A DNA stretch of 33,343 bases. Origin: a virus. The notes under the pieces were generated by a model, which was not told the origin of the DNA, did no database searches, and was given only the letters and a program-made list of their open reading frames with translations. Below, in pieces: positions 3,887 to 16,777 of this stretch. A program made the position numbers and the translations under genes. Position 1 is the first letter of the stretch, and each line of letters begins with the position of its first letter. Location: positions 1-33,343 of the IMG/VR virus record IMGVR_UViG_3300008267_000828, one strand, 5' to 3'.

Positions 3887-4463
3887 GTTTACTTATCTTG
3901 TTCCAGTTATTAGTTGCATACCAGCCAATTGCAATAGCATCTGCAACATCATTATCATCTACATCAGTCATAAATTCTATATTAACAAGTCTGATAGTTC
4001 TATTCTTTCTAAACTCTCTTTCCTTGCCCTTATACCAAGAATCTGACTTGCCAGGAGTTTCTTTTCTCAGGGCAGCCTTTTCTTCTTTTGTTAAAACCTT
4101 ATTGCCAATCCAGTTTTGCCAGGCAACTGGTACGCAAGGATAGATATCTTTTACGCCATTAATATATGCTGCACTAACAATGGCTCCTTGTGCAAGAGCC
4201 AGTTGCATAGATGTCTTTGGAGAGTTTGCAAAAATAGTATTTTCAATTACAACTGCTTTAACATCAAAATCTTTAAACAATGGAGTAAGTTTTTTACAAG
4301 CATCTCCAGCTTTTTTATAATGATCATTTCCAGTAAAATTAACTTTACCAAATTTGACTAAATTATCATTTTCAAATATTGCAAAGGCAGCAGAAGTAGA
4401 AGATGCATCAATAGAAATAAATCTACTTGGCTTACCAATATCTTTCCAACTATTTTTGCTCAT
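3876..4463 (-). CDS. RuvC-like Holliday junction resolvase
   Basis: RNase H-fold nuclease expected to resolve branched DNA before packaging. Conserved acidic positions: the first Asp in FISIDASSTSAAF, a Glu in AVVIENTIF, and the C-terminal DVDDNDVADAIAIG, matching the D-E-D pattern of RuvC-type resolvases. The segment NSPKTSMQLALAQGAI between them corresponds to the RuvC alpha helix after the second strand. A TTG at 4469 extends the frame by two codons, but ATG 4463 with AGGA ten bases upstream is the better start, giving 195 residues. It overlaps the end of the zinc-finger gene. It is one of two candidate junction resolvases in this window. Confidence 0.82.
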   Translation of the reverse strand: MSKNSWKDIGKPSRFISIDASSTSAAFAIFENDNLVKFGKVNFTGNDHYKKAGDACKKLTPLFKDFDVKAVVIENTIFANSPKTSMQLALAQGAIVSAAYINGVKDIYPCVPVAWQNWIGNKVLTKEEKAALRKETPGKSDSWYKGKEREFRKNRTIRLVNIEFMTDVDDNDVADAIAIGWYATNNWNKISKLDL

Positions 4464-4743
4464 AATCAAAAAATCCTTTTATATCTTTTAGTGTTTGATC
4501 TAGCTTTCTTTTACTAATCATACAACTATTACAAAACCCAACATCATTATAAATGCTGATCTCAATACCACATCCACCAGCACATTTTCTAGACTTACTT
4601 GCACGAGACCTTACCTTTGAAACTTTATATCTTTGCATAATCTTTTCTTTAGTTGCAGCACTTCTACACTCAGCAGAACAATAAATTTGATTCTTATTGT
4701 TTGTCTGAAACTGTTCGTCACAAAGTTTACAAAATTTACTCAA
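4450..4743 (-). CDS. Small zinc-finger protein (two Cys clusters)
   Basis: A 97-residue protein with an N-terminal finger CKLC followed by YCSAECRSAATK, and a second cluster CAGGCG with CNSC near residues 54-74. Between them is a very basic stretch (RYKVSKVRSRASKSRK) fit for nucleic-acid contact. The only start that keeps the first finger is TTG at 4743, preceded by AAGGAAAG at good distance and overlapping the upstream nuclease stop by 8 bases. Such zinc proteins are common near phage recombination nucleases; the specific job is unknown. It could be a DNA-binding accessory of the adjacent nucleases. Confidence 0.68.
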   Translation of the reverse strand: MSKFCKLCDEQFQTNNKNQIYCSAECRSAATKEKIMQRYKVSKVRSRASKSRKCAGGCGIEISIYNDVGFCNSCMISKRKLDQTLKDIKGFFDYEQK

Positions 4744-11610: not shown

Positions 11611-12564
11611 CTATTGTAACACATTTGCTATAAGATCGTCAAACTGTGACACAAACTTTTTTAATTCATCATCAGATAGTTCTGATACATCTTTTACTGA
11701 CTCTGGAAGACTTGCATTTATTGCACTTGATCCAAGTATGTTAGATAACTTTTTTGCCATCTCTTTTCCTGCATCATCGTTATCTCCTAAAATAATTACA
11801 TTATTAAAATACTGTTTTAAGAGTTCCCTCTGTTTACCTGACACAGATGCTCCTAAAGTGGCTACAGCGTGTGCTCCTACCTGTTCTAGGCGTATTGCAT
11901 CGAAGGATGACTCAACTACAAACACCTTGTCAAATCTTTTTGCTCTAAACAAGTTGAACATTGTTTTTGCTTTTGGAAGACCTGGAGTATTCTTAAATTC
12001 TTTCCCCTCTACAGATCTGCCAACAAACCCTAAGCACATTCCATCAGGAGAGTGTACTGGAATTGTAACCATATCTTGACTTTCAGAGTATCCAAGTAGA
12101 TACCTTTCAACACTGTCTTTAGTAATTCCTCTACCAAGATAGTACTGTGCAGCCCTTTGTGAATTTAGTGCAGAAATATTTAGTCTTTTAATTAGTTCAC
12201 TATCAAACTCTATAAACTCTGGTTTCTTATCAAGCTTAGACTGAATAGCTTCTATAAAATTAACATTGTCAGATTTAGAGTCAACCATTCTTGCGGATTC
12301 AAAATATGATCGCTTTGTAACATGCATAATTACTTCAATTAGAGAATGAGATTCTTGACATCCAAAGCAGTAAAACAATCCGCTTTCTTTTGATACTTCT
12401 GCAGCAGGAGATCTATAGTTATTGTGATAAGGACAAAAAATTATGAAGTCAGACTCTACTTCATATACGACATCAATACCTGCTGCTAACAGACTTCTTC
12501 TGACTTGATCTTCTGAGTAGAAGAAGCCATCACTGGCTTGTTTTTGTCTATTCCCTCTATACAC
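11611..12564 (-). CDS. dnaG: DnaG-like primase (zinc finger plus Toprim, short form)
   Basis: Makes RNA primers at the fork. It has 317 residues against about 580 in bacterial DnaG. The CHC2-type zinc finger is Cys44, His47, Cys66, Cys69 (FCPYHNNYRSP and FYCFGC). The Toprim core has Glu in FVVESSFDAIR and the Asp motif ILGDNDDAGK. The helicase-binding C-terminal domain of DnaG is absent. The start is GTG at 12564, because no later start preserves the conserved FYSEDQVRRSLLAAGID segment; a GGAAAGAG lies nine bases ahead. This makes a 79-base overlap with the upstream gene, unusually long for this genome. Confidence 0.9.
   Translation of the reverse strand: MYRGNRQKQASDGFFYSEDQVRRSLLAAGIDVVYEVESDFIIFCPYHNNYRSPAAEVSKESGLFYCFGCQESHSLIEVIMHVTKRSYFESARMVDSKSDNVNFIEAIQSKLDKKPEFIEFDSELIKRLNISALNSQRAAQYYLGRGITKDSVERYLLGYSESQDMVTIPVHSPDGMCLGFVGRSVEGKEFKNTPGLPKAKTMFNLFRAKRFDKVFVVESSFDAIRLEQVGAHAVATLGASVSGKQRELLKQYFNNVIILGDNDDAGKEMAKKLSNILGSSAINASLPESVKDVSELSDDELKKFVSQFDDLIANVLQ
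11613..11642 (-). promoter_or_regulatory. Strong sigma70-like promoter candidate for ssb
   Basis: TTGACG (11642-11637), 18-base spacer, TACAAT (11618-11613), with TG one base before the -10 hexamer (TGTTACAAT, an extended -10). Each hexamer matches the consensus at five of six positions. It lies in the last codons of the primase gene; the message would start near 11606, giving a leader of about 37 bases that carries a short GTCC/GGAC inverted repeat and the AGGAGA ribosome site. It fits the need for abundant SSB. Confidence 0.55.
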
Positions 12565-12827
12565 TCTGCTGTTCTCTTTCCTACATAAACGCCATAAATT
12601 GATATTTCAAAATTAAATGTTTTTCCATTATAACTGATTGTAAAGTCTGTGTCAATATCATACCTTGGAACATATCCATCAGATCTCATTCCAGCAATAA
12701 TCATAGAGGTGTACTGCTCTTTAAGTCTAATAATATGAGAATCATCATAAATTTCACCATCAAGGCTAAATCTTTTTATTGACTTATGTGCGTACATACC
12801 ATTAATTATATCAATGGAATTAACCAC
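12486..12827 (-). CDS. Hypothetical 113-residue protein between methyltransferase and primase
   Basis: Mixed alpha/beta protein with an N-terminal helical part (DDSHIIRLKEQYTSMIIAGM) and a beta part (DFTISYNGKTFNFEISIYGVYVG). There is no recognisable catalytic motif, metal site or membrane segment. The start is GTG at 12827, sharing one base with the methyltransferase stop (TAGTG). Its last 79 bases overlap the primase start. Given the position it may assist replication, but I do not recognise the family and infer nothing more. Confidence 0.6.
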   Translation of the reverse strand: MVNSIDIINGMYAHKSIKRFSLDGEIYDDSHIIRLKEQYTSMIIAGMRSDGYVPRYDIDTDFTISYNGKTFNFEISIYGVYVGKRTAECIEGIDKNKPVMASSTQKIKSEEVC

Positions 12828-13789
12828 TATACCATTTTTTCTAGTCTTTTTACTGCTTTTTCATAGAACTTCTGTTCTCTTTCAATTAATACTGGAACTC
12901 TTTTAAGAGCTATTGCCGCTTCTCCAGTTGAACCAGATCCAGCAAATGGATCAAGAACTAGGTCTCCTACTTTTGAATATAACGAAAGAAGATATTGTAA
13001 TAGGTAGACTGGCTTTTCTGTTGGATGTATTCTATTTCCAGATTTTGATGGTAAAGATATATGATTTGGAATACAAGCTTGAAGATATTTTTCTCCATTC
13101 TTATCTTTATACATATTCTCTACTCTATCTAAAATAATTTGATTACTATTTAATAGAACATCTTTTACTAAATTAATTACTGAGTCTATATGAGTATTAT
13201 CTTCAAAATTACTTTCTAACAAAGATTGGCGAACTAGACTATTTACTACAGACGATGCCTTTTCTGCAACCACAACTGCTTCTATAATTTTATTATCAAT
13301 ATTTTGATTTACTATTTCAACATCAGAATTAAATGTAGCCTTACTTCCTTTAACTCCAACAATTATATACTCAACAGCAGACGTTGGCATATATGCTCTA
13401 TTAATTGGAACAGCATTTGGCTTGGTCCAACTTATAACACGCCTTGGGGAAAGACCGTTTTCTTTAAGTGCATCAATAAAATAAGATATATAAGAATCTG
13501 CACAAAATATTGCAAAGTTTCCACCCTTTTTAAGCACACGATTAAATTCGCCAGACCATTTATAAAGCTCTTTAATAAAATCTTCGTGACTAAAAGTATC
13601 CCATTCTTCTTGTGTGTCTGAGTCAAACTTATAAGAATGAATTGTATTGTCTTTATATGTATGAAAATTTGTTTCCCTTGCTATATTAAATGGTGGATCT
13701 GTTAATATAAAGTCAATACTGTTATTTTTAATATTTCTATAGTTATCATCATTAAAAATGATATCTTCAATCTTTAAAACATTATCCAT
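12827..13789 (-). CDS. DNA adenine-N6 or cytosine-N4 methyltransferase (beta-type order)
   Basis: S-adenosylmethionine-dependent DNA methyltransferase of 320 residues. Catalytic motif IV, DPPF (31-34, in ILTDPPFN), comes before the AdoMet-binding motif I, DPFAGSGSTGEAA (near 277-290), the beta-class order typical of N6-adenine and N4-cytosine enzymes. RIHPTEKPVYLLQYLLSLYS before motif I is the usual motif X-like segment. Residues about 155-225 form a helical insertion (IIEAVVVAEKASSVVN and onward) in the region where a target-recognition domain is expected. It overlaps the HNH endonuclease gene by 8 bases and the next gene by 1. It may protect phage DNA against the adjacent nuclease or host enzymes. 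Confidence 0.9.
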   Translation of the reverse strand: MDNVLKIEDIIFNDDNYRNIKNNSIDFILTDPPFNIARETNFHTYKDNTIHSYKFDSDTQEEWDTFSHEDFIKELYKWSGEFNRVLKKGGNFAIFCADSYISYFIDALKENGLSPRRVISWTKPNAVPINRAYMPTSAVEYIIVGVKGSKATFNSDVEIVNQNIDNKIIEAVVVAEKASSVVNSLVRQSLLESNFEDNTHIDSVINLVKDVLLNSNQIILDRVENMYKDKNGEKYLQACIPNHISLPSKSGNRIHPTEKPVYLLQYLLSLYSKVGDLVLDPFAGSGSTGEAAIALKRVPVLIEREQKFYEKAVKRLEKMV

Positions 13790-14498
13790 TATATGCTACC
13801 TTTTCTAAAAACTTTTCTGGATATGCAAAAGGACAACTTGTGCAATCGTTTTGATTATTAACAAATTCTAGCCCTCCACCAATTTTTTCTGGTATCTTTA
13901 TTCCTAAAAACATATCTGGCTTTTTATTATTGCTTATGCATCTTTCACAAACTCTTGACTTATACAAGTTATTATCTCTTGACAATAGTTGATAGCTATC
14001 TTTTATTTCAAATACGTTTGACACATCTACTTTTTTTTCAATATCTTTATCACTAATCAACATCCTTGCAACTGGAATTCTATGATCAATTTCTGGATTA
14101 GTAGTTACTCTTATCTGAGTAAAAGAATCCCTATCTTCAAGAGTATTACGAATTTTTGAAATTTCTCCTGGAGTGTATACTGCTCTAGCATAGTTGTTAC
14201 CAGTAATATAAGGGGAAACTATTTTATCAAAGGTGTCATTTATATTATGAACCAGACATTTTCTTCTATTTCCCTTTGGTATATTTACTCCAGCATTTCT
14301 TAACTCACGAACCTGTGCAGCTATTTGTCCAACGTCTACACCATTATCTGTTAGCTTGCTTCTAAGGCAACATCTAGATATTCCATTTGGATTTTCAAGT
14401 ATTATTCTTAAAACTTCCTGAGACTTAAATCCTTGTGCAAAATTTAGCTCTTTTAAATACTTAAAAAGGTCTTCGTGCGTTAATATATCATTATTCAT
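13782..14498 (-). CDS. HNH endonuclease, probably a restriction-type enzyme paired with the methyltransferase
   Basis: A 238-residue protein. The N-terminal half (about 20-75) reads as a winged-helix or HTH domain (SQEVLRIILENPNGISRCCLRSKL, then GQIAAQVRELRNAGV). The C-terminal part holds a beta-beta-alpha-metal nuclease: PEIDHRIPVARM (near 138-149; Asp-His pair), YQLLSRDNNLYKSRVCERC (near 168-186; Asn and Lys of the HNH helix) and two CxxC pairs, CERC and CTSC, that would bind structural zinc. Several type II restriction enzymes have this D-H, L-N-K, CxxC layout. The gene precedes the methyltransferase and overlaps it by 8 bases, so they are one translational unit. A homing or recombination HNH nuclease is the alternative. 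It has a strong AAGGAG ribosome site. Confidence 0.76.
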   Translation of the reverse strand: MNNDILTHEDLFKYLKELNFAQGFKSQEVLRIILENPNGISRCCLRSKLTDNGVDVGQIAAQVRELRNAGVNIPKGNRRKCLVHNINDTFDKIVSPYITGNNYARAVYTPGEISKIRNTLEDRDSFTQIRVTTNPEIDHRIPVARMLISDKDIEKKVDVSNVFEIKDSYQLLSRDNNLYKSRVCERCISNNKKPDMFLGIKIPEKIGGGLEFVNNQNDCTSCPFAYPEKFLEKVAYNG

Positions 14499-14508
14499 AA
14501 ATTACTCC

Positions 14509-15723
14509 TTATTCAAAGTCTTTATAAATAAAGCGACCTGAGTCAAAATCAATATCTACCATAAACTCTCCACAAAAACCGTGGCGATTCTTTCTAAATA
14601 TACATTCAAGGATTGTGCTACCCGTTGCACGACCAAGGGCTAAAACCCAGTCAGCATCATAAGCTAACTGCTTAGACCAGGCAACCTGACCAAGTGATGG
14701 AACGCTATTCATATCTGTTGCATCGTCTGGTGTAGCAGAAGCAATAGCAATAACTGGAACTTGTGAAGAGATTGCAAGTACCTTTAATTCTCTAGAAATA
14801 TTTTTAATCTTTACAACTTCATTATCGTTACCTTGGTTAGAATTCATCAACTGAATATAGTCAATAAAAACTACATCTGGAGAGTACTGGTCAATCTTAC
14901 CTCTAACAACAGAAGGAGAAACATCTCCAAGACCATCGTTAGATACAATATAAAAAGGTGGCTTATCTTTAAGATGTTGCTTAGCCCAATTTTCAAACCC
15001 TTCAACATCAATCATTCCAGAACTTAATTTTCTATGAGAAAAGTATCCTTCTGCCATAATTGTGTATACACGATTTCGCACTTCTTTCTCTGTCATTTCA
15101 AGAGAAACTACTAGTGGTACTTTTCCAGCTTTCCACGCCTGTACAGCCATAAAAATAGCGAGCCAAGACTTACCAATGGCAGGGTAAGCAAGAAGAATAC
15201 CAAATTGACCAGGAGTAATACCACCAGGTAGGTAGTTATCAAAACCTGCAAGATTCGTTCTAACACCATGAATTCCTTTTTCACTTAATTCTTTAATGTG
15301 TATAAAATGTGCAGCAGCATCTTCAACATCTGTTGCATCAATATCTCTTACATCTGCACTAATTCTTTTAAGGTCAGATGTCTTAGAAATAATTGTATTT
15401 AAAGCCTCTACTGGCTGATTATCATTTAGCTGTTTAGCACTAGACATTAAGACATTTCTTAAATTATCTTCAAGATACTTAGTTCTAAGCTCTTCTAAAT
15501 GATGCTTTGTTGATCCAATTTCTCCAACTGGCTGGAAGTCTCTAAACTTTTCTACAAGCAATGATTGTGTTGGAACATTAGAGTTTTGTTCATAATAATT
15601 CTTTACAAAATCCCAAACATCTTTGTGTGTTCTAAATAGAATATCTGGATTTGCTTGAAAAAGAACATGAATCTGCTTATCATTCAGTACAGCAGATAAC
15701 ACTTTTGCTTCTAAATCAACCAT
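14509..15723 (-). CDS. dnaB: Replicative DNA helicase (DnaB-like)
   Basis: Hexameric 5'-3' helicase of 404 residues. The small helical N-terminal domain (about 1-110) begins DLEAKVLSAVLND as in DnaB. The RecA-like core carries Walker A AYPAIGKS (near 183-190), SLEMTEKEVRNRV (the DnaB SLEM motif), Walker B VVFIDYIQLM (near 285-294) and the C-terminal region LECIFRKNRHGFCGE holding the arginine finger segment. SQLAYDADWVL-type sequence before it (SKQLAYDADWVLALGR) also fits. It is co-translated with the 102-residue gene before it (TAATG overlap). Together with primase and SSB it forms the phage's own primosome. Confidence 0.92.
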   Translation of the reverse strand: MVDLEAKVLSAVLNDKQIHVLFQANPDILFRTHKDVWDFVKNYYEQNSNVPTQSLLVEKFRDFQPVGEIGSTKHHLEELRTKYLEDNLRNVLMSSAKQLNDNQPVEALNTIISKTSDLKRISADVRDIDATDVEDAAAHFIHIKELSEKGIHGVRTNLAGFDNYLPGGITPGQFGILLAYPAIGKSWLAIFMAVQAWKAGKVPLVVSLEMTEKEVRNRVYTIMAEGYFSHRKLSSGMIDVEGFENWAKQHLKDKPPFYIVSNDGLGDVSPSVVRGKIDQYSPDVVFIDYIQLMNSNQGNDNEVVKIKNISRELKVLAISSQVPVIAIASATPDDATDMNSVPSLGQVAWSKQLAYDADWVLALGRATGSTILECIFRKNRHGFCGEFMVDIDFDSGRFIYKDFE

Positions 15724-16031
15724 TACTTATTTAGCCATTCCCTTGCTTGTTGTCTTAGCAACACTCTTGTTGCATCGTCTTCTTCTTTTATTCTCTTAGA
15801 ATCATACACCTTGTCTGCATTATTTGCAAACCATTTCCAAGTTGGAGATGCAGATACCCTAACATAATACTCAATTAGATCGTAGCAGGTTTCTACCCCA
15901 TAAGATTCAATTAAAGAATCTGCTGCCCATTGTTGGGCATGTATGTTAATGTTTTCGTCTTTTTGTGTTTTTTCTTTAATTAACTTCTTATATCTAGATA
16001 TTAGTGCAAAGCGATCTTTCTTATCCGCCAC
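15723..16031 (-). CDS. Small protein preceding the helicase gene, possible helicase accessory
   Basis: A 102-residue, helix-rich protein with several Trp residues (AQQWAADSLIESYG, PTWKWFANNADKVY, QAREWLNK). The start is GTG at 16031 with an AGAGGAC ribosome site 4 bases before it. The stop overlaps the helicase ATG (TAATG). Genes right before phage helicases often encode helicase loaders, and one-to-one coupled synthesis would suit a partner, but the sequence has no AAA+ motifs and I do not recognise a loader family. The role is inferred from position only. Confidence 0.62.
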   Translation of the reverse strand: MADKKDRFALISRYKKLIKEKTQKDENINIHAQQWAADSLIESYGVETCYDLIEYYVRVSASPTWKWFANNADKVYDSKRIKEEDDATRVLLRQQAREWLNK

Positions 16032-16079
16032 TAGTCCTCTAATTCTTTTTTAGCTTCTTCTACTTTTTCAATTACTTTA

Positions 16080-16119
16080 TTTTCTACAAACTGATACACT
16101 TTTCTACAAACTGATACAC
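16080..16119 (-). repeat. Perfect 20-bp tandem duplication causing a frameshift
   Basis: Two identical 20-base copies lie head to tail at 16080-16099 and 16100-16119. On the coding strand each begins GTGTATCAG and ends GTAGAAAA. Twenty is not a multiple of three, so the second copy shifts the frame and brings in a TAG at 16086-16084. Removing one copy restores an open frame ending at TAG 16033-16031, which overlaps the next gene's GTG start. Confidence 0.9.
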
Positions 16120-16254
16120 CCTATCAAGTGCCTGATCTGTATTTTCACCATTACGAACAAAATCTGTAATTCCTAAATCAATTCTAAGACTTTGAAAATT
16201 ACCTAGATTAAGTGTATATCCAAGTGTTACTGAAACATTTGTTGTTTCTGACAT
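16084..16254 (-). CDS. Small phage protein of unknown function, C-terminally truncated by a tandem duplication
   Basis: As read it encodes 56 residues from ATG 16254, which has AGGAGA six bases upstream; the frame extends to 16305, but that would overlap the previous gene and lacks such a site. The body has two beta strands (NVSVTLGYTLNLGNFQSLRIDLGITD) and a helix (TDQALDRVYQFVE), then KCISL and stop. With one 20-bp repeat copy removed it would read on after QFVE as NKVIEKVEEAKKELED, about 67 residues, a natural helical end. The lost tail and the restored TAGTG coupling argue that the longer form is ancestral. The protein may still fold, as both strands and most of the helix remain. The family is unknown to me by name. 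Confidence 0.66.
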   Translation of the reverse strand: MSETTNVSVTLGYTLNLGNFQSLRIDLGITDFVRNGENTDQALDRVYQFVEKCISL

Positions 16255-16264
16255 ATCTGGTCTC

Positions 16265-16777
16265 CTACCATGTCTCTTCTTGCCAGGTTGGGATAAAACG
16301 CCCATCCTTTGTCTTCGTATAAAGCATTATAGCATCTCCCATCTTAGAACGCAAATCCTGTTCTGTTAATACGTTTCTAGGAGTAATTCTTCCATCTTTT
16401 CTTGGTCTTCCACCATGAACAGTTGTCATAATTTCCCTAATTTCAAAAATATGATCTTCAGAATAATATGCATTAATTTGAAAGCCTCTTTCTCCACCAA
16501 TACTATCACCTATTGGTGCAGGAATCAAGCCGTTAGCAATAATTCTTTGGAACTGAACTCTTGACCTATTTAAAAGTCTTGCAGTATTTGCTATAGTGTA
16601 AGCTCTTTTTCTATGTTTCTTAAAATCAGAATATAACATTGATTGTTCCTTATCCTGAGTTACATTAAAAAAGTTAACAATGTTACTGCTTTTATTAATG
16701 TGAAATACTTTTATTAGATCCCCATTTAAGAAGAATATCTTTTTACAAGGATTTATTTTATCCTGTGGCTGTGACAT
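16265..16777 (-). CDS. Helix-turn-helix DNA-binding protein (MerR/excisionase-like), likely regulator
   Basis: A 170-residue protein. Residues about 58-115 hold the motif: AYTIANTARLLNRSRVQFQRIIANGLIPAPI, then YYSEDHIFEIREIM. This resembles the winged HTH of excisionase or MerR-type proteins, where the first helices read DNA and a wing carries the Pro-rich loop. It is followed by a basic segment (GGRPRKDGRITPR). The N-terminal 45 residues are a short beta domain (KKIFFLNGDLIKVFHI). It sits between the last tail gene and the replication genes, a sensible place for a regulator of the early/late switch. There is no proof of target; a replication-initiation role is also possible. Confidence 0.66.
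   Translation of the reverse strand: MSQPQDKINPCKKIFFLNGDLIKVFHINKSSNIVNFFNVTQDKEQSMLYSDFKKHRKRAYTIANTARLLNRSRVQFQRIIANGLIPAPIGDSIGGERGFQINAYYSEDHIFEIREIMTTVHGGRPRKDGRITPRNVLTEQDLRSKMGDAIMLYTKTKDGRFIPTWQEETW

Follow-up and report, generated by a model that had tools for sequence, protein, structure and literature searches.

Introduction

Hardly any sequenced phage genome encodes a complete restriction-modification (R-M) system: one survey counted 9 R-M systems in 831 phage genomes (PMC4176335). Burkholderia phage KL3 carries an EcoRII-type module in which a restriction enzyme and a methyltransferase are encoded in a phage genome (PMC3091744), although KL3 is a temperate P2-like phage and the locus studied here is a cassette in a replication operon. 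Adjacent restriction enzyme and methyltransferase genes, patchily distributed within the virus family, are also encoded by the chlorovirus PBCV-1 (CviAI/CviAII) and by melbournevirus (mel_015/mel_016) (PMC7019647, PMC7253447). Chloroviruses package their restriction enzymes, whose presumed role is the degradation of host DNA (PMC7019647), and those of marseilleviruses are plausibly directed at rivals (PMC7253447). These viruses infect eukaryotes and offer a functional parallel, not family kinship.

At the protein level, the nuclease of our locus resembles IceA1/NlaIII (PF05315) in profile similarity and in its HNH layout (D-H, N-x-x-K and two CxxC pairs), and the phage relatives of this nuclease show a CATG pattern; iceA1 is described, in a passage of PMC2816704 citing Xu et al. 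(2002), as encoding a CATG-cutting isoschizomer of NlaIII. Unlike IceA1/NlaIII, the family described here falls below the Pfam threshold, is phage-borne and has as partner either a beta-class methyltransferase or none. The PADLOC type II restriction enzyme profile REase_II PDLC03537, represented by the bacterial protein L201, is similar over the whole length of the nuclease, including the N-terminal helical part, but the methylase partner of L201 is a C5-cytosine enzyme and the phage proteins match the profile weakly.

Here we analyse a linear virus record, a window of 33,343 bases that represents a fragment of a tailed freshwater phage with low GC content (35%). We propose, with a probability of roughly 0.7, that it carries a mobile phage-borne type II R-M cassette in which the nuclease is most likely CATG-specific and the methyltransferase protects the same site.

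Results

Organization of the locus

The genes of interest lie on the minus strand, to which the coordinates given for this locus refer, in the order DnaB-type helicase (14509-15723), HNH nuclease (13782-14498), methyltransferase (12827-13789), a 113-residue open reading frame (u113, 12486-12827), DnaG-type primase (11611-12564), SSB and PHP-DnaE polymerase. The primase shares about 33-37% identity with its counterparts in Streptomyces and Rhodococcus phages and, judging from these relatives, the host is likely an actinobacterium. A previous sequence-only reading had placed the nuclease gene before the methyltransferase gene with an 8-base overlap, the pair being located between helicase and primase. 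Both open reading frames are real and the overlap, ATGGATAA (13782-13789), contains the nuclease stop codon TAA at 13784-13782 and the methyltransferase ATG at 13789-13787, so the arrangement is confirmed with the addition that u113 separates the methyltransferase from the primase. Translational coupling of the two genes through this overlap is likely, and the adjacency of nuclease and methyltransferase genes is that expected of type II R-M systems.

Domains and active site of the HNH nuclease

The nuclease (238 residues) is a remote IceA/NlaIII relative composed of a winged helix and an HNH domain with four cysteines. The N-terminal winged-helix domain (residues about 8-91; 14226-14477) matches HTH_39 in 8 of the 9 family members and is predicted by AF2 as a block with pLDDT of about 73-93. 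The catalytic domain (residues 95-238; 13785-14216) contains the D138-H139 pair (14082-14087), predicted to provide a metal ligand and the general base; N177-L-Y-K180 (13959-13970), predicted to provide a second metal ligand and a conserved lysine within the helix motif L-S-R-D-N-N-L-Y-K; and the CxxC pairs C184/C187 (13938-13949) and C219/C222 (13833-13844). These eight residues are invariant in the nine phage homologues and in the IceA protein of L124. All the elements listed in the sequence-only reading (HTH-like N-terminus, Asp-His motif, L-x-N-N-x-x-K helix and two CxxC pairs) are therefore present. By analogy with Hpy99I and PacI (PMC4081073), the aspartate and asparagine would hold the metal, the histidine would act as general base and the cysteine pairs would bind a structural zinc.

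The full-length AF2 model, built from nine sequences, folded the winged helix and left the HNH half unfolded; the Foldseek matches of this model, winged-helix proteins without a significant hit, consequently concern the winged helix only. When modelled alone, the HNH half reached a pLDDT of 81 and a pTM of 0.76 with a beta-beta-alpha layout, and its top Foldseek matches were mostly HNH nucleases (Cas9 HNH, VcaM4I, TagI, Cap5, Ref and IscB), none of them below E 0.001. We found no solved structure for any member of the phage HNH family. Elsewhere in the window, positions 4450-4743 encode a small protein of zinc-ribbon type that weakly matches both NinG and HNH endonuclease families.

Relationship of the nuclease to type II restriction enzymes

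Pfam, PHROGs and NCBIfam contain no family for the window nuclease, and neither tblastn against phage and plasmid records nor a catalytic-domain query against genome contigs gave an HNH match. The PDLC03537 profile matches the window protein with E 9e-7 and all nine phage members weakly (E 1e-6 to 1e-8, best 4.5e-8). The bacterial protein L201, which belongs to this profile and whose gene adjoins that of a C5 methyltransferase, aligns with the phage profile over 219 columns with a probability of 98.4 (hhalign) and itself matches PF05315 weakly. At the chosen cut-offs, PDLC03537 had no match in a set of 29 genomes or among 398 Pseudomonadota genomes, and matched in 1 of 395 Bacteroidota genomes.

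The phage HNH profile also picks up IceA/NlaIII-type proteins of Campylobacterota (best E 3.7e-7, several at 1e-3 to 1e-5) in a small detection set of 389 open reading frames. Because none of the phage proteins reaches the gathering score of Pfam ICEA (PF05315) and the hhalign comparison with one IceA protein is weak (48.7% probability), profile evidence identifies them as remote relatives of IceA/NlaIII rather than members, with which they have in common profile similarity and the active-site and cysteine pattern. The family thus combines homology to type II restriction enzymes with intact catalytic residues. The sequence-only reading had favoured a restriction-type over a homing-type nuclease, and would have given way to best matches among homing endonucleases or non-catalytic zinc proteins; the profile searches returned type II restriction enzymes instead, and the nine PDLC03537 matches, the C5 methyltransferase beside L201 and the detection of IceA/NlaIII proteins all support its view.

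The methyltransferase

The methyltransferase (320 residues) carries motif IV, DPPF, at residues 31-34 (13688-13699) ahead of the SAM-binding motif I, DPFAGSGSTGEA, at residues 280-291 (12917-12952), a motif order that, together with an above-cut-off match to Pfam N6_N4_Mtase (E=5e-42), identifies it by sequence as a beta-class enzyme acting on N6-adenine or N4-cytosine. The insert between the two motifs (about residues 155-245; 13055-13327), about 90 residues long and missing from shorter phage relatives, is a candidate target-recognition region. Among solved structures, the closest is that of a DpnA-type enzyme specific for adenine, and our searches found no close bacterial relative. One of the better relatives, a beta-class methyltransferase of L124 resembling that of the window, adjoins an IceA-family gene, and two Helicobacter relatives adjoin IceA fragments. 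Since IceA occurs in only 1 of 398 genomes sampled from the phylum of L124 (that of L124 itself) and in 0 of 398 from another phylum, chance adjacency in L124 is unlikely. In the Pseudomonadota and Bacillota samples IceA was too rare for partner classes to be compared.

We considered whether the window methyltransferase is the usual IceA partner and rejected this: the partners of Campylobacterota IceA belong to another class and do not resemble it, so its specificity is not predictable from homology. Some cassette-free relatives of the window phage (L115-L118) possess a PF01555-like protein, about 247 residues long, with a degenerate motif IV (THPPY/AAPPF) and no nuclease neighbour; it is probably not an active DNA methyltransferase.

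Distribution and selection of the cassette

A scan with the window helicase collected 80 related contigs, among which four further ones carry both genes at the identical site, between the helicase and the 113-residue open reading frame. L005 is 100% identical to the window, and the remaining carriers show 78-92% identity in the nuclease and 91-95% in the methyltransferase, giving four distinct lineages (window/L005, L007, L008 and L011). In the non-carriers the helicase is joined straight to the 113-residue frame, and none of the 80 helicase loci has the nuclease without the methyltransferase or the reverse. The junctions are clean and close relatives show the intact empty site. On a tree of helicase plus primase the carriers are scattered among related phages: L007 and L008 are each sister to an empty contig (support 0.999 and 0.995) and L011 falls within an otherwise empty clade (0.955).

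The left edge of the exchanged segment corresponds to the final 12 nt of the helicase frame before its stop codon (14512-14523), which read AAAGAYTTTGAA in 4/4 carriers; almost every empty relative has AAGGATTTTGAR here, L016 being different. The right junction at the start of the 113-residue frame, GGTTAATTCCATTGATATAATT (12780-12827), is common to carriers and empty sites. A search for wide co-conversion around the cassette revealed none beyond these 12 nt. The GC content of the cassette is 30-31%, compared with 35%. Both genes are under purifying selection, with dN/dS of 0.08-0.25 for the nuclease and 0.07-0.14 for the methyltransferase; values well below 1, combined with joint presence and absence, imply that selection maintains the two genes and that they are acquired or lost together at a single site, through either recombination or homing-like repair. 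In L008 the N-terminal half of the nuclease (L008:7238-7951) is far more diverged from that of the window than the C-terminal half, which suggests mosaicism or altered DNA recognition.

CATG is absent from four of five contigs with a solitary nuclease

Alignment-based scans uncovered five further contigs whose HNH proteins are 51-56% identical to the window nuclease. Their genes sit at unrelated genomic places, and no PF01555 methyltransferase was found in any of the five contigs. Counts were made for every palindromic 4-mer and CATG was picked out only afterwards, although homology predicts this same word. In four of these contigs, CATG was observed 0 times against expectations of 175, 155, 313 and 83. 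The fifth, L101/G008, has 49 CATG (111 expected) and a nuclease with intact motifs at 15847-16542; it stands as an unexplained exception, which may reflect differing specificity or a protecting gene beyond the contig. Since GGCC is also absent from three of the solitary contigs and CCGG from all of them, host restriction was a serious confounder, and three controls were carried out on the available metagenomic contigs, which are fragments.

Among 80 relatives in the L093 group, CATG is zero in 3 of 4 HNH-bearing loci and ranges from 9 to 84 in all 75 HNH-less loci; one locus with zero CATG, L273, ends precisely at the border of the HNH gene. The closest HNH-less relatives, L268-L271, contain 19-22 CATG per locus with GGCC and CCGG both at 0, and L268 shows a precise empty HNH site of 10 bp. 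No HNH gene was found in the L268-L271 contigs, which reach 91.7 kb. Their CATG content is reduced (observed/expected about 0.3), which would fit a nuclease that was lost recently, with CATG sites accumulating again since then.

The unrelated group around L102 comprises one HNH-bearing locus with 0 CATG, on a contig that keeps GGCC, and 79 HNH-less relatives that all contain CATG (3,971 in 1.15 Mb). Across both groups, CATG is thus present in 154 HNH-less relatives (75 + 79 loci). In an unbiased ranking of 136 strand-merged 4-mers, CATG was the sole word missing from all four solitary contigs and present in L268-L271 (83 copies). The pooled Fisher test gives p 2e-7 on loci that are not independent, and the robust statement is that the association appears in two independent groups. 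Taken as sequence evidence, these comparisons point to CATG as the target of the solitary nucleases, and the disappearance of the 4-mer as a whole speaks against a longer one.

CATG is retained by carriers of the methyltransferase

Phages with both genes keep CATG, at observed/expected counts of 49/85, 96/148, 30/63 and 25/43, slightly below those of empty relatives; the window-type phage retains 49 sites. Among HNH-bearing contigs, CATG is kept only where the methyltransferase is present, L101 excepted. Because CATG is lost in solitary-nuclease phages and kept with the methyltransferase, the comparison supports a restriction-type nuclease accompanied by a protecting methylase.

The four cassettes (window 12827-14498, L007, L008 and L011) together contain 1 CATG against an expectation of about 11 under synonymous recoding, while backbone genes are close to theirs, with 25 against about 30. 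This is a weak hint, as the cassettes are related to each other, that the cassette possibly originated in a CATG-free genome. The window and its helicase relatives contain no or almost no GGCC, CCGG, CGCG and GCGC (GGCC: 0 of 17 expected in the window and 0/69 in a 100-kb relative), which suggests host restriction of GC palindromes in these phages.

Discussion

Homology, conserved active-site residues, cassette structure, purifying selection and the CATG pattern are the basis for reading the locus as an R-M cassette. Together, the winged helix and HNH domain would act as a sequence-specific endonuclease, most likely directed at CATG; for the window enzyme itself, this specificity is probable from its solitary relatives and from IceA/NlaIII. 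If it cuts CATG, the methyltransferase must protect CATG, and its specificity is probably CATG with m6A as product. The overlapping methyltransferase would then modify this site in the phage's own DNA, allowing the methylated genome to keep its CATG sites, and in an infected cell the nuclease would cut unmethylated DNA, presumably that of a co-infecting phage, the host chromosome or both. Should the site of the window nuclease differ from CATG, the pair is still R-M-like. Solitary-nuclease phages would protect themselves through the loss of every CATG. On balance we lean towards a broader picture, a phage-specific family of CATG endonucleases used as offensive weapons with two interchangeable states of self-protection, solitary and site-free or methylase-paired and site-keeping, the pair being mobile between phages.

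The nuclease-first gene order had been regarded in the sequence-only reading as a puzzle for the timing of protection. The order stands but the puzzle is weaker than thought, given that the giant-virus R-M system of melbournevirus also transcribes its restriction enzyme before its methyltransferase (PMC7253447). Incoming phage DNA would already be protected if progeny DNA is methylated before packaging.

A literature search found no solitary phage restriction enzyme in a site-free phage, which is not proof of absence, and no restriction enzyme that stands alone in site-free phages but has a partner methylase in site-bearing ones. If the proposal is true, solitary and methylase-paired nucleases constitute a natural experiment on a virus disarming its own weapon, the long-standing proposal that viruses turn restriction enzymes on rivals or on host DNA becomes directly testable, and the approach provides a computational route to reading the specificity of an uncharacterised phage nuclease. 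New CATG enzymes may result.

Among the alternatives, it is unlikely that the two genes are independent neighbours, with the methyltransferase being an ordinary methylase that counters a host restriction enzyme and the nuclease serving some other purpose at a different site. The nuclease family does occur alone on contigs that lack the PF01555 methyltransferase, the window methyltransferase is not orthologous to the usual IceA partner, and solitary phage methyltransferases are common (PMC4176335); this account nevertheless has to face two genes that are always inserted or absent jointly, with overlapping reading frames in one cassette, and the retention of CATG, L101 apart, only beside the methyltransferase. 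Still less probable is a free-standing homing endonuclease that cuts the empty helicase/u113 junction, a sequence devoid of CATG, and carries the methyltransferase as a passenger. The use of one insertion point by four scattered lineages, the precise empty sites (also seen for the solitary copy, in L268) and a co-converted flank of just 12 nt are what homing would produce, but the identical site can be explained by homologous recombination in the common flanks. The window protein matches type II restriction enzymes and no homing family, the solitary relatives occupy unrelated places, and the genome-wide loss of one 4-mer fits a frequent cutter and not a long-site homing enzyme.

The least probable alternative, to which we give very little weight, attributes the loss of CATG in solitary-nuclease phages to a host R-M system instead of their own nuclease. 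Viral palindrome avoidance is documented (PMC7230728), and phages of the L093 group are missing GGCC and CCGG too, the kind of footprint that host restriction is known to leave. Their close HNH-less relatives, however, lack GGCC and CCGG as well but keep CATG; in the unrelated L102 group only the HNH-bearing contig, in which GGCC is kept, has lost CATG, unlike its 79 relatives; and the lost word is that expected from IceA/NlaIII.

Other phages related to the L093 group are completely devoid of GATC (L301, L304, L306, L312 and L319) or of GTAC (L304, L314-L317, L335 and L336), and these may harbour other solitary nucleases or have been shaped by host systems.
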